64,000 nucleotides of DNA from Streptomyces inhibens. Its GTDB lineage: Bacteria > Actinomycetota > Actinomycetes > Streptomycetales > Streptomycetaceae. Under the pieces are notes generated by a model. The model made no database searches and was not told where the DNA came from. It was given only the letters and a program-made list of their open reading frames with translations. The stretch spans positions 1-64,000 of the forward strand of contig NZ_QUAC01000006.1 in assembly GCF_003389455.1 (NCBI RefSeq). Reading direction: 5' to 3'. Below, one piece after another: positions 851 to 6,226 of the stretch (the stretch's first letter is position 1; every line of letters starts with the position of its first letter). A program made the translations under genes and the position numbers.

Positions 851-2134
851 GTGAGCGAGAAGACCCTGCAGCACCGGATCGACGGCCCCGACGACGCCCC
901 CGTACTCGTACTGGGCGCCTCGCTCGGTACCACATGGCATATGTGGGACAGGCAGATCCCCGAGCTGACCCGCCACTGGCGTGTCATCCGTTTCGACCTG
1001 CCGGGACACGGCGGCTCGCCCGCCCACGCGGCGACCTCCATCGCCGAGCTGGCCGACCGGCTCGTCGCCACCCTCGACGCCCTGGGCGTGGAGCGCTTCG
1101 GCTACGCAGGCTGCAACATCGGCGGGGCCATCGGCACCCAGCTGGCGCTCACCCGCCCGCACCGGGTCACGTCGCTGGCCCTGGTGTCCTCGTCGCCGCG
1201 CTACGGCACCGCCGACGCCTGGCGCCAGCGCGGCGTGGTCATCCGCACCAACGGGCTCGACCCGATCGCCCGCACCGCCCCCGAGCACTGGTTCACCCAG
1301 GGCTTCGCCGGTGCCCAGCCCGCCATCGTCGAGTGGGCCGTCCAGATGGTGCGGACCACCGACCCCGGCTGCTACATCGCCGCCTGCGAGGCGCTGGCCT
1401 CCTACGACGTACGGTCCTCCCTCGGCCGGGTCGGCGTACCCACGCTCGTCGTCGTCGGCTCCGAGGACCAGGTCACCCCGACCACCGACGCCCGTAGCCT
1501 GGTCGCCGGCGTACCGGACGCGAGCCTGGCGCTGGTGCCCGGCACCTCCCACCTCGCGCCCGTCGAGCAGCCCTCGGCCGTCACCGAACTCCTCATCCGG
1601 CACTTCACCACAGCCTGGCACGACAAGCCGGGCCCCGGCGGCCAGGCCGCGATCGGCGCCGCCGCGCCCAAGCCGCAGATCGCGCCCCCGCCGCCCCCGC
1701 AGGCGCCGCCCGCCGCCATAGAGTCCGGCCTCGCCCAGCCCGAGCAGGACCGCGGCGGCACGTACGAAGCGGGCATCAAGATCCGCCGCGAGGTCCTCGG
1801 CGACGCCCACGTCGACCGGGTCCAGGCCGCCGCCGACGACTTCACCGGCGACTTCCACGACTTCATCACCCGCTACGCCTGGGGCGAGACCTGGACCCGC
1901 CCGGGCCTGGACCGCCGCACCCGCAGCATCATCACGCTCACCGCGCTGGTCGCCCGCGGCCACCACGACGAGTTGGCCCTGCACACCCGCGCGGCCCTCC
2001 GCAACGGCCTCACCCCCACGGAGATCAAGGAAGTCCTGCTGCACACCGCCGTCTACTGCGGCGTCCCGGCAGCCAACTCCGCCTTCGCGGTCGCCCAGCG
2101 GGTGATACGGGAGGAAACGACACCGGAGGGGTGA
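851..2134 (+). CDS. pcaL: 3-oxoadipate enol-lactonase / 4-carboxymuconolactone decarboxylase fusion (PcaL) with altered nucleophile
   Basis: This 427-residue protein has an alpha/beta-hydrolase domain (about 1-260, PcaD-like), a Pro/Ala linker (about 280-300, PKPQIAPPPPPQAPP) and an AhpD/CMD domain (about 310-420, PcaC-like, with LLHTAVYCGVPAANSAF). The fusion normally performs two consecutive steps of the protocatechuate branch of the beta-ketoadipate pathway. The nucleophile elbow reads GCNIGG: residue 89 is Asn (AAC, 1115-1117) where the family has Ser. The other triad residues look present (Asp in GSEDQVTP, His in GTSHLAP). The lactonase half may therefore be inactive while the decarboxylase half looks intact. 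The start is a GTG. No other pca gene is visible; the upstream neighbour is a broken conjugation gene. Confidence 0.85.
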   Translation: MSEKTLQHRIDGPDDAPVLVLGASLGTTWHMWDRQIPELTRHWRVIRFDLPGHGGSPAHAATSIAELADRLVATLDALGVERFGYAGCNIGGAIGTQLALTRPHRVTSLALVSSSPRYGTADAWRQRGVVIRTNGLDPIARTAPEHWFTQGFAGAQPAIVEWAVQMVRTTDPGCYIAACEALASYDVRSSLGRVGVPTLVVVGSEDQVTPTTDARSLVAGVPDASLALVPGTSHLAPVEQPSAVTELLIRHFTTAWHDKPGPGGQAAIGAAAPKPQIAPPPPPQAPPAAIESGLAQPEQDRGGTYEAGIKIRREVLGDAHVDRVQAAADDFTGDFHDFITRYAWGETWTRPGLDRRTRSIITLTALVARGHHDELALHTRAALRNGLTPTEIKEVLLHTAVYCGVPAANSAFAVAQRVIREETTPEG

Positions 2135-2660: not shown

Positions 2661-2779
2661 GGAGGAAAGGTCGAGGGGGGAAGGGGCAACGGGACGGCCA
2701 CCGGGACGGCCAAGGCACGTAGCGCCGCCGTCGGCCCACGGCACCCCGAGGTACCCCCACCCACGGCAAGATGGCACGT

Positions 2780-3421
2780 ATGGAACTCACCAAGAAGACC
2801 CACGCCTGTGTCCGGCTGGAGAAGGACGGGCAGACGCTCGTCATCGACCCCGGTGTCTTCAGCGAGGAGGACGCGGCCGTCGGTGCGGACGCGATCCTGG
2901 TCACCCACGAGCACATGGACCACTTCAACGAGGACCGGCTGCGGGCGGGCATGGAGGCCAATCCGGGCGCCGAGATCTGGACCCTGGCCAGCGTCGCCGA
3001 GCAGCTCTCGGCCGCGTTCCCGGGCCGGGTGCACACGGTCGGCGAGGGCGACACCTTCACCGCGGCCGGCTTCGACGTGGAGGTGCACGGTCAGCTGCAC
3101 GCCGTCATCCACCCCGACATCCCGCGCATCACCAACGTCGGCTATCTGCTCGACGGCGGGGCGGTGTTCCATCCGGGTGACGCGCTCACCGTCCCGGAGG
3201 GCCGTACGGTCGACACCCTGCTGCTGCCCGTGCACGCCCCCTGGAACAAGGTGGCCGAGCTCATCGACTATGTCCGGGCGGTCGCGCCCCGGCGGGCCAT
3301 CGACATCCACGACAGCCTGCTCCAGGACCGCGCCCGTCCGCTCTACGACGCCATGATCGACAAGTTGGGCGGCACGGACCACGGCCGACTCACCCCGGGC
3401 ACCAGCACCACCGTCGGCTGA
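2780..3421 (+). CDS. MBL-fold metallo-hydrolase
   Basis: A 213-residue single-domain protein of the metallo-beta-lactamase superfamily, resembling the small UlaG/YtnP-like hydrolases common in actinomycetes. The metal-binding signature is clear: LVTHEHMDHF (HxHxDH) near residue 55, a later His in HPGDALTVPEG and another in the C-terminal IDIHDS. There is no signal peptide, so it should act in the cytoplasm. The substrate cannot be told. An in-frame ATG at 2771 adds three residues; neither start has a convincing ribosome site, and 2780 was chosen because MELTKKTHACVRLEKDG is the usual N-terminus I recall. It precedes exonuclease III by 38 bp and may be cotranscribed with it. Confidence 0.8.
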   Translation: MELTKKTHACVRLEKDGQTLVIDPGVFSEEDAAVGADAILVTHEHMDHFNEDRLRAGMEANPGAEIWTLASVAEQLSAAFPGRVHTVGEGDTFTAAGFDVEVHGQLHAVIHPDIPRITNVGYLLDGGAVFHPGDALTVPEGRTVDTLLLPVHAPWNKVAELIDYVRAVAPRRAIDIHDSLLQDRARPLYDAMIDKLGGTDHGRLTPGTSTTVG

Positions 3422-3459: not shown

Positions 3460-4239
3460 ATGCGCATCGCGACCTGGAACGTCAATTCGATCACCGCCCG
3501 CCTCCCGAGGCTGCTGGCCTGGCTGGAGCGCACCGGCACGGACGTGCTGTGCATCCAGGAGACCAAGTGCACGGCCGAGCAGTTCCCGCTCGACGAGCTG
3601 CGCGAGCTCGGCTATGAAGCCGCGGTCAACGCCAACGGACGCTGGAACGGCGTGGCTCTGCTGTCCAAGGTGGGGCTGGAGGACGTCGTCATGGGCCTTC
3701 CCGGCGGCCCGGACTACGAAGGGGTGCAGGAGCCGCGCGCCGTCTCGGCGACCTGCGGCCCGGCCCGCGTCTGGTCGGTGTACGTCCCCAATGGCCGCGA
3801 GGTCGAGCATGCGCACTACACCTACAAGCTGGGCTGGTTCGAGGCGCTGAAGGCGGCGGTCGCCGAGGACGCGGCGGGCGCCCGCCCGTTCGCGGTCCTC
3901 GGTGACTACAACGTCGCACCGACGGACGAGGACGTCTGGGACCCGGCCGTCTTCGTGGGCGCCACCCATGTCACGCCCGCCGAGCGTGCCGCCCTGACCG
4001 CCCTGCGCGAGGCGGGTCTGACGGACATCGTTCCGCGCCCCCTCAAGTACGACCGTCCGTACACCTACTGGGACTACCGCCAGCTCGCCTTCCCCAAGAA
4101 CCGCGGGATGCGTATTGATCTGGTCTACGGCAACGAACCGTTCGCCAAGGCCGTCTCGGACGCGTACGTGGACCGCGAGGAGCGCAAGGGCAAGGGCGCC
4201 TCGGACCATGCACCGGTCGTGGTGGACCTCGACGTATAG
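3460..4239 (+). CDS. xth: Exodeoxyribonuclease III (AP endonuclease)
   Basis: This 259-residue protein is a full-length member of the exonuclease III / AP endonuclease family, which cuts DNA 5' to abasic sites and trims 3' ends in base excision repair. It begins MRIATWNVNSITARL, then has the metal-binding LCIQETKC, the GDYNVAPTDEDVWDP catalytic segment and the C-terminal KGASDHAPVVVDLDV with the conserved DH pair. The ATG at 3460 gives the normal N-terminus; an in-frame GTG at 3436 would add eight non-conserved residues. The last codons (Val-Asp-Leu-Asp-Val-stop) form the first unit of a 16-bp tandem array running downstream. Confidence 0.95.
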   Translation: MRIATWNVNSITARLPRLLAWLERTGTDVLCIQETKCTAEQFPLDELRELGYEAAVNANGRWNGVALLSKVGLEDVVMGLPGGPDYEGVQEPRAVSATCGPARVWSVYVPNGREVEHAHYTYKLGWFEALKAAVAEDAAGARPFAVLGDYNVAPTDEDVWDPAVFVGATHVTPAERAALTALREAGLTDIVPRPLKYDRPYTYWDYRQLAFPKNRGMRIDLVYGNEPFAKAVSDAYVDREERKGKGASDHAPVVVDLDV

Positions 4240-4360: not shown

Positions 4361-4421
4361 CCGGACCTCACCCCAGCCCCCCGGACCTCACCCCAGCCCC
4401 CCCGGACCTCACCCCCGCCCC
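4361..4421. repeat. 20-bp tandem array, three units, spanning the SGNH hydrolase stop codon
   Basis: CCGGACCTCACCCC recurs at 4361, 4381 and 4402. On the minus strand, the unit at 4402 contains the TGA stop (4411-4409) of the SGNH hydrolase, and two further copies follow downstream. Together with the xth array it fills the gap between these convergent genes. Confidence 0.85.
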
Positions 4422-6226
4422 GGCACCAGTGCCCAGAGGTTCACCGACTCGCCGAGCGCGTTCAGGCCCGTGTCGCCGGGGTGGAGATGGTCGCCGCTGT
4501 CGTAGGCGGGGAGCATCCGCTGAGGTTGCTGTGGGTCGCGGAGGACGGCGTCGAAGTCCAGGGTGGCGTCGAAGGCGCCGGCGTTGCCGCGTACGAAGGC
4601 GTTGACGGCCTGGCGGCGGGCGTCGACGGCCGGGGTGCAGTCGGGGTAGCCCGCACAGGGCCCGACGGTCGCGACCACGACCCGCAGCCCTCGCTCGTGC
4701 GCCCGCCGGGCGATGGCCCGCAGACCGGCGATGACCTCCTCGGCCGAGGCGCCCCAGCGCACGTCGTTGATGCCCTCGAAGACCACCACCGTCCGTGCCG
4801 ACGGCTGCGCCAGCACATCGCGCTCCAGCCGGTGCTGGGCGCTGACCCCGCCGGTGTCCGTGCTGACCCCGTCGCCCTGGTAGCGGTCGGCGACGACGCG
4901 GTTCGCCGAGATGCCGTGGTTGAGCACGCCATAGCGGGGCAGCGCGCTCTGCGCCTGGAAGCGGCGGGCCAGCACATCGGGCCAGCGCCGGTTGGCGCCG
5001 CGCGTCGACTTCGCCCCGTCGGTGATCGAATCGCCCAGCGCCACGATCGAGCCGGGACCGCCGTCGACATCAACACCCGTCAGGAACGGCCAGATGGCCA
5101 TCGTCTCCGGGTAGGCTCCGCCCCCGACGTCCCCCGTACGGTCGCCGCTGCCCGCCGCGCTCAGATACGACAGCTGGGTCGCCTCCTGGTGCACCGGCGC
5201 TGCCGTCACGGTCCCCGGCAGATGGATGCTCACCAGCAGATCGGTGCCGGCGGGGACGGTGAAGGGCGCCGGATCGCTGAAGGCCTCGGCGCCGGCCGGT
5301 ATTCGGGTGCCGGTCCGACCCCGCCCGAAGGTCAGCGGGACCGGCCGGCCGTCCGCCGCCGCCCCCGTGCCGCGCACCGCGACGCTGGCCGTCCCTATCT
5401 CCACCGGCGCCGCCGCGAAGGTGTTGGCGATCCGTATCCGAGCCCGCGGGCCGCCCGCGCCGCTGTGCACGACCAGCCGCAGCGTACGGTCCGTCCAGGG
5501 CCCGACCGCCCGGTAGCCGCCGGTGCTCGCCGCCCAACTCCCGGTCCGGCCGCGCCCGGTGTCCCGCACCGCCACCGCGAACACATGCAGTGCGCCCGCC
5601 GTTCCGGACGCCTTGGGCAGCACCACCGCAGCCACTTCCCGGCCGGCCCGCAGCGGTACCGTCACCGCGTACAGCCGTGCCGTCTCCGTCAGCTGTCCGC
5701 CCGCGCCGTTGATGTGCGGCAGTGCCACCGCCTTGGTGCTCAGCGGCCCCGACCGCCAGTCGGGCGCGGTGAGTTCGTAGGAGCCGCGCGCTCCGTCCCG
5801 GTAGCGCACGGTGCCGTAACCGGAGGCCGTGCCGCCGGTCGCGGCGACCAGAAATGTCATCGCGTCGCCCCGGCCGGGCACCGCCACCGCCTGTCCGTCC
5901 GCGACCACATTGTCCGGTGTCCCGGGCGCGGTTTCCGGCCATCGGAGCCGCGCTCCGTCGATCCTGAGGACGCTCCCGGGCGTCCAGCCGGCCGCCGTCA
6001 GGTCCTGTGCGGACAGTGAATGGCCCGCGCCGTCGAAGTCGGCCGCGCCGGGTCCGGAGTGGCCACTGACCGCCGTGTTGTCGAAGAGTGTGGCCAAGGG
6101 CGACGGCCGGTGCGGGTGTTGCGCCGGGCCGGCCGTCGCGGCCGTCGCCGTGCCGACGGTCGTGGCCGGCAGCGCCGTCGCGGTGAGCAGCAGTGTCAGG
6201 GTGGCGCCCCATCGTCGTACGCGCAT
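4409..6226 (-). CDS. Secreted SGNH/GDSL hydrolase with large N-terminal domain
   Basis: A 605-residue exported esterase-type protein. Residues 1-30 form a signal peptide (MRVRRW then a hydrophobic Leu/Thr/Ala stretch ending in TATA). About 35-370 is a beta-rich region of unassigned fold that I do not recognise as catalytic. The SGNH hydrolase domain occupies about 390-605: block I IVALGDSITDG supplies the Ser, VFEGINDVRWG is block III, and DHLHPGDTG supplies the catalytic Asp and His. Similar Streptomyces proteins are annotated as SGNH or rhamnogalacturonan acetylesterase-like hydrolases; the substrate is unknown, but secretion suggests polysaccharide or lipid esters. It ends convergently with xth. 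Confidence 0.88.
   Translation of the reverse strand: MRVRRWGATLTLLLTATALPATTVGTATAATAGPAQHPHRPSPLATLFDNTAVSGHSGPGAADFDGAGHSLSAQDLTAAGWTPGSVLRIDGARLRWPETAPGTPDNVVADGQAVAVPGRGDAMTFLVAATGGTASGYGTVRYRDGARGSYELTAPDWRSGPLSTKAVALPHINGAGGQLTETARLYAVTVPLRAGREVAAVVLPKASGTAGALHVFAVAVRDTGRGRTGSWAASTGGYRAVGPWTDRTLRLVVHSGAGGPRARIRIANTFAAAPVEIGTASVAVRGTGAAADGRPVPLTFGRGRTGTRIPAGAEAFSDPAPFTVPAGTDLLVSIHLPGTVTAAPVHQEATQLSYLSAAGSGDRTGDVGGGAYPETMAIWPFLTGVDVDGGPGSIVALGDSITDGAKSTRGANRRWPDVLARRFQAQSALPRYGVLNHGISANRVVADRYQGDGVSTDTGGVSAQHRLERDVLAQPSARTVVVFEGINDVRWGASAEEVIAGLRAIARRAHERGLRVVVATVGPCAGYPDCTPAVDARRQAVNAFVRGNAGAFDATLDFDAVLRDPQQPQRMLPAYDSGDHLHPGDTGLNALGESVNLWALVPGRG

Follow-up and report, generated by a model that had tools for sequence, protein, structure and literature searches.

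Described relatives with and without a nucleophile

Few residues of a serine hydrolase are normally as conserved as its catalytic serine. In the enol-lactonase PcaD (TIGR02427; PDB code 2XUA) and in PcaL (PcaDC, NF051488), the bifunctional protein of the pca cluster in which a lactonase domain precedes a 4-carboxymuconolactone decarboxylase (CMD) domain, this serine lies in a G-x-S-x-G elbow and forms a triad with an Asp and a His. Among the systems that we found worked out, the cofactor-free dioxygenase HOD appears to be the nearest precedent for a dispensable nucleophile. According to the excerpts consulted of two reports (PMC3961685, PMC10548524), the S101A substitution leaves its kcat unaffected and raises its KM, the His-Asp pair is needed and acts as a general base, and Ala is found at the nucleophile position in natural relatives such as AqdC. 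The same excerpts describe Ser or Ala in the natural proteins, with no mention of an elbow that has Asn, Asp, Cys or Gly. MenH, a synthase/lyase with the α/β-hydrolase fold, is described in excerpts of one further paper (PMC3630204), and in the listed entry of another (PMC3097144), as performing a non-hydrolytic elimination with a triad. No title or abstract opening among the open-access matches listed concerned a PcaL without the serine.

The protein studied here, named PcaL2, resembles the PcaL of the pca cluster in its domain order, its CMD domain, its Asp-His pair and five common residues (R127, R132, W147, F148 and Y175) that are putative substrate contacts. It differs in lying outside the pca cluster, in the specific residues Cys88, His30, W162, V218, A219 and L247, and in a variable nucleophile position, against Ser in 35 of 35 pca-type sequences. 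PcaD 2XUA is, with 3OM8, the best solved relative by sequence and the first by fold, but in the window protein the Ser is replaced and the PcaD score stays below the cut-off. With HOD and AqdC, as excerpted, PcaL2 shares an exchangeable elbow residue beside a kept His and acid; the subfamily and substrates are different, however, and PcaL2, known here from sequence, gives no sign of oxygenase chemistry. MenH has the fold in common with PcaL2 but retains its Ser and acts on another substrate, and its family model (TIGR03695) gives the window protein just 54.5 bits against a cut-off of 208.55.

An asparagine in the nucleophile elbow

The window, a stretch of 64,000 nucleotides from Streptomyces inhibens, encodes a two-domain protein with an intervening linker rich in proline and alanine (Table 1). 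The whole protein passes the model for bifunctional PcaDC. Its CMD domain, described as intact in the first-pass annotation, scores 163.9 bits as protein and 166.6 in the genome search with TIGR02425 (PcaC), above the cut-off of 155.7, and the PcaD equivalog TIGR02427 is narrowly missed with 250.5 bits against 255.85.

That annotation had also reported an Asn in place of the catalytic Ser, with the Asp and His kept, and both observations are borne out by phmmer comparison with solved structures. The best relatives of the α/β domain are 3OM8 and 2XUA. Asn89 aligns with the Ser of GLSMGG in 2XUA and of GLSLGG in 3OM8, and D206 and H234 align with an Asp and a His of both chains. The possibility raised with the original claim, that an alignment might place the nucleophile elsewhere, is excluded in the usual register by these solved chains. 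For an AF2 model of the entire protein, Foldseek places 2XUA, the enol-lactonase, at the top by fold; the model has a mean pLDDT of 70.7, with residues 129–170 below 50, and its pocket geometry is not usable.

Table 1. Positions of pcaL2, its domains and key residues, and the two downstream genes in the window.
Feature	Position	Strand	Evidence
pcaL2, PcaDC-like fusion (α/β-hydrolase domain, linker, CMD domain), 427 aa, GTG start	851..2134	+	NF051488, 567.6 bits (cut-off 390)
α/β-hydrolase (enol-lactonase-like) domain, residues 5–252	863..1606	+	profile search, alignment to solved structures
W29-H30, after the presumed oxyanion-hole loop	935..940	+	H30 in 250/250 PcaL2; Ala in 27/35 pca-type
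Nucleophile elbow A86-G-C-N-I-G-G92	1106..1126	+	ORF translation, alignment to solved structures
Cys88 (Nu-1), candidate shifted nucleophile	1112..1114	+	246/250 PcaL2; 0/35 pca-type
Asn89 at the nucleophile position, codon AAC	1115..1117	+	sequence read
Asp206 of the triad	1466..1468	+	250/250 PcaL2
His234 of the triad	1550..1552	+	250/250 PcaL2
4-carboxymuconolactone decarboxylase (PcaC-type) domain	1760..2113	+	TIGR02425 profile match
MBL-fold hydrolase (Lactamase_B_3), conserved downstream neighbour	2771..3421	+	neighbourhood comparison
Exonuclease III-like enzyme (Exo_endo_phos), presumed name, third gene of the conserved string	3460..4239	+	neighbourhood comparison

A PcaL paralogue outside the pca cluster

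The gene had initially been taken for the PcaL of the pathway, an identification that has to be given up because the genome contains a separate PcaL with an intact Ser. This second copy lies on another contig (C285:1284-2570), has the elbow YAGVSLGG, and is neighboured by ORFs that we read as a putative pcaB-type lyase and a putative pobA-type hydroxylase. NF051488 gives it 556.4 bits, compared with 567.6 for the window copy, and it alone passes the PcaD equivalog (264.6 bits). No pca genes were seen beside the gene in the window; it is a paralogue of PcaL (PcaDC) located away from the pca cluster. Streptomyces genes matching the bifunctional PcaDC model would then be of two kinds, one of them without a dependable lactonase.

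The comparison set was drawn from 342 loci, of which 17 yielded no usable gene after filtering: L003–L015 (13 other matches, L008 being the fragment), L270, which is the fragment region, and the genome's own pca-type gene in three copies. The remaining 325 genes reduced to 266 distinct sequences, 250 PcaL2 and 16 pca-type; the own pca-type gene was put back via L045, and the addition of 19 pca-type sequences brought that group to 35. The two groups were sorted by sequence, with the use of W162 and H30. By coordinates, at least 32 of the 35 pca-type genes, those other than the own copy, L269 and L278, are no further than about 7 kb from a pcaH match.

Residues at the nucleophile position

Position 89 is Ala in 127, Ser in 98, Asn in 13, Asp in 8, Cys in 2 and Gly in 2 of the 250 distinct Streptomyces PcaL2 sequences, counts that do not stand for frequencies in the genus since the sampling favours near relatives (best matches first). 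The surroundings of the PcaL2 elbow are nearly fixed, with F83, G87, A93 and G95 invariant, and Asp206 and His234 are unchanged in all 285 sequences of both groups. Among the 252 columns of the domain, position 89 ranks 18th by entropy and 52nd by changes on the tree (18 changes, with a median of 6). A variable position within a conserved domain fits the earlier suggestion that the domain may have changed role, and the sequences suggest that PcaL2 represents a family of PcaL paralogues in which the nucleophile is dispensable.

The residue preceding position 89 separates the two groups. Cys88 occurs in 246 of the 250 PcaL2 sequences and in none of the pca-type ones; it is present in every one of the 150 sequences whose position 89 is neither Ser nor Cys, and each of the four PcaL2 that lack it has Ser or Cys at 89. 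A search for compensating residues by 561 residue/position tests over independent pairs gave a strongest candidate that averaged 4.4 of 11 differing pairs, and values below 6 cannot reach 0.05 even singly.

The two sequences with Cys at the nucleophile position, L267 (genome G351) and L268 (G332), have the elbow [AC]-C-V-S-G and long low-complexity linkers before the CMD domain.

Direction of change

In a tree built with the nucleophile column omitted and rooted at the midpoint, all 250 PcaL2 fall into a single clade (support 99). Position 89 requires at least 18 state changes on this tree, or 15 when scored as Ser versus non-Ser; at the PcaL2 rate, 9.7 changes would be expected in the pca-type subtree, where none is seen (Poisson P 6e-5). 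In 300 sampled parsimony histories with Ser at the root, the mean numbers were 6.5 for Ser to Ala, 2.5 for Ala to Ser, 3.0 for Asn to Ser and 2.2 for Asn to Asp, together with one change to Cys and one to Gly. Parsimony places Cys88 already at the PcaL2 root.

The window protein belongs to a clade of 24 sequences (support 98/99, IQ-TREE on DNA) that have Asn, Asp or an AGC-encoded Ser. Serine is encoded by TCN just outside this clade and by AGC in three sequences inside it, each of which is sister to an AAC-Asn sequence with a bootstrap of 96–100; the one-base distance between AAC and AGC pointed out in the first-pass annotation is thus found between natural sister sequences. On the simplest reading of the codons, Ser would have been regained from Asn three times; an ancestral AGC followed by numerous independent gains of Asn is possible but takes more steps.

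Selection on the lactonase domain

The pN/pS ratios of the lactonase domain, calculated over close non-overlapping pairs, are 0.106 for Ala (60 pairs), 0.118 for Asn (6), 0.131 for Ser (37) and 0.147 for Asp (4) sequences; Gly (0.052, 1 pair) and the pca-type group (0.244, 2 pairs) have too few pairs to be used. The CMD domain gives 0.17–0.21 in the same four groups, the lactonase domain being the more constrained of the two. Purifying selection keeps the lactonase domain, about equally strongly with or without Ser. A relic or decaying domain is countered by these ratios and by the intact ORFs, which measure 414–689 aa across all 250 PcaL2. The original proposal that only one half of the fusion may work is too simple, in that the lactonase domain is not decaying and other genomes share the loss. 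What stands of the first reading is the Asn replacement with the triad partners and the CMD domain retained; the identity as the pathway PcaL does not, and the notion of a dead half falls short.

Pathway context

A definite PcaL2 (E 1e-150 or better) is present in 116 of 150 Streptomyces genomes, 76 of them with a pcaH match and 40 with none, in a test that may miss genes in broken drafts (the S. inhibens genome has no match despite a pca-type PcaL at a contig edge). Since those 40 gave no pcaH match, PcaL2 is not tied to the protocatechuate branch, and a role there is not the whole story. Among 20 pcaH regions, 18 carry their own PcaL with both halves and the Ser; no PcaL was found within reach in the other two (L357 and L374).

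The 24 genomes of the window's clade fall into three sets. Six have a second CMD above the TIGR02425 cut-off within a full second PcaL, and the PcaL2 elbow has 4 Asn and 2 Asp. Eleven have a stand-alone, Ser-intact PcaD together with a pcaH match (ten over the curated cut-off, G265 just under it), with 6 Asn and 5 Asp at the elbow; one of them, G654, has two lactonase copies, and the Ser was read in the copy away from pcaH. In these eleven genomes the CMD of PcaL2 is the sole TIGR02425 match over the cut-off. Nine have a distant CMD protein elsewhere with 61–91 bits against 155.7, and in G652 and G661 no other CMD was found at E 1e-15. The decarboxylase half of PcaL2 is the best, and perhaps the only, PcaC candidate there, and PcaD covers the hydrolysis of the lactone. 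That half is probably in use, judging from the gene content, and some pca clusters may depend on a distant pcaL2 for the decarboxylase step.

In the remaining seven genomes neither a pcaH match nor a pca-type lactonase was found, and the elbow has 3 Ser, 3 Asn and 1 Asp. Serine thus occurs in three of the seven clade genomes in which no other lactonase was found and in none of the 17 that have one (hypergeometric 0.017, small numbers). Across the family, pcaH is present with 47 of 96 Ser and 117 of 141 non-Ser PcaL2 (raw Fisher 3.5e-8; the table covers 237 of the 250 sequences), but under phylogenetic pairing the link between Ser and the absence of pcaH is not significant, with 0.6 pairs in the same and 2.8 in the opposite direction out of 11. 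Outside the clade, G069 has a stand-alone PcaD and only the PcaL2 CMD over the cut-off, yet its PcaL2 keeps Ser.

A stand-alone PcaD-like lactonase was seen in several Streptomyces genomes (L403–L413 and L216), and no CMD domain was found within about 1.5 kb on either side of it.

Possible mechanism and rival explanations

The lactonase-like half probably has a conserved role without need of a nucleophile, with a His-Asp general base as the preferred option and ligand binding or a scaffold as the other. As an account of the whole protein we tentatively favour, at somewhat short of an even chance, a working CMD joined to a lactonase-fold domain that would operate with a His234-Asp206 general base and without an acyl-enzyme. 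The C-terminal domain would be a functional 4-carboxymuconolactone decarboxylase, and in some genomes the sole PcaC. The N-terminal domain would bind an enol-lactone- or β-keto-acid-like ligand, presumably by way of R127, R132, W147, F148 and Y175; the His-Asp pair would activate water or the ligand itself, and the elbow residue would merely tune the pocket. A general base is favoured because PcaL2 shows the pattern of HOD with a wider range of residues. Where another lactonase is missing the Ser may keep some use, since all three of its apparent regains in the clade fall in genomes that yielded no other lactonase. The bolder statement that the lactonase-fold half runs an unnamed reaction by the His-Asp pair alone (or with Cys88 as nucleophile), the family being a natural saturation of the nucleophile position with reversals and with the remaining active site retained, is possible but rather doubtful. 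Counting against the favoured explanation, conservation of the Asp and His equally fits a binding or structural role, the score below the PcaD cut-off means that the ligand may differ, and four of the seven clade genomes in which no pca-type lactonase was found keep Asn or Asp. The six residues that occur naturally at this site, beside a His-Asp pair that never varies and under undiminished purifying selection, provide a ready test of whether chemistry on enol-lactones or related compounds can proceed with no acyl-enzyme.

The main rival, which we regard as unlikely, is a pseudoenzyme or scaffold whose noncatalytic α/β domain would bind a ligand or the CMD oligomer (for allostery, channelling or folding), with the Asp and His serving binding or stability. 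That Ser interchanges freely with Ala, Asn, Asp, Cys and Gly would be expected of it, as would the retention of a CMD that is the only PcaC-grade domain found in 11 of the 24 clade genomes, beside a Ser-intact PcaD; non-Ser residues are also commoner with pcaH, although not significantly after correction for kinship. However, the complete conservation of both Asp206 and His234 in PcaL2 goes beyond what most scaffolds need, the lactonase domain is under tighter constraint than the CMD, and Ser was apparently regained several times. A further and improbable rival would shift the nucleophile to Cys88, which would have replaced Ser or back it up and so freed position 89. Its distribution, its presence at the PcaL2 root and the lack of any PcaL2 that has neither Cys88 nor a Ser or Cys at position 89 are in keeping with this, and the excerpt of PMC3961685 places His-100, which precedes the nucleophile of HOD, among the active-site residues. 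Against it, only four losses of Cys88 are seen, all of which would fall in Ser/Cys sequences by chance about once in 40 (0.4 to the fourth power, ignoring kinship), so that the pattern is suggestive but not significant, and the AF2 model offers no usable pocket. The Nu-1 side chain, moreover, often points elsewhere.

Redundancy followed by drift, in which PcaL2 would be a spare lactonase whose Ser drifts beside a pca-type PcaL or PcaD and is regained after their loss, seems quite improbable as the explanation. The distribution of Ser within the clade agrees with it, and each of the three Ser sequences has an Asn sister whose genome holds a pca-type lactonase. These are three independent pairs only, though, the family-wide pairing is not significant, G069 combines PcaD with a Ser PcaL2, and drift alone fails to explain why the remainder of the domain is still constrained as strongly as before. 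That the base was miscalled, or that the domain has only lately died in this genome, is scarcely credible and is refuted by the orthologues: beyond the single odd codon nothing speaks for it, AAC is present in 13 of the 250 distinct orthologue sequences, including those of the single-contig genomes G064 and G294, the ORFs are intact, and the pN/pS of the Asn sequences is low. A chance one-off is rejected in the same way, the position being variable across the orthologues while the pca-type paralogues uniformly have Ser.

Gene neighbourhood of pcaL2

In 99 of 100 loci, namely the window and 99 relatives whose loci hold 91 distinct genes, the PcaDC gene is followed on one strand by the MBL-fold gene and the Exo_endo_phos gene, in that order; we take the latter to encode an exonuclease III. 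At the odd locus, probably L157, whose record ends 37 bases past the match, both downstream genes were not found. The gap between pcaL2 and the MBL gene is below 100 bp in 77 of the 99 loci and 639 bp in the window. A class-wide sample of 296 genomes contained 28 with a match at E 1e-95 or better, four of them outside Streptomyces; these four relatives are 47–53% identical and all have Ser at the elbow. By sequence and gene order, PcaL2 is an old Streptomyces paralogue of the bifunctional PcaL, set in the string pcaL2-MBL-exoIII.

Three further features were observed around the gene. A 280-bp segment at 664–944, comprising the upstream region and the first ~31 codons of pcaL2, has a copy of 83% identity on another contig, at L270 3542–3822 (G000:C284), which adjoins ROK kinase and sugar-ABC genes of the kind that precede pcaL2 in several related species; the duplicate has the look of a scar left when a rearrangement carried off the remaining genes of the string. 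Inside the long gap between pcaL2 and the MBL gene, a 40-bp unit is repeated in 6.1 copies (2416–2658, 88% match). An SGNH/GDSL-type lipase gene (4409–6226, minus strand) lies convergent to the Exo_endo_phos gene and occupies the same place in many of the compared loci.
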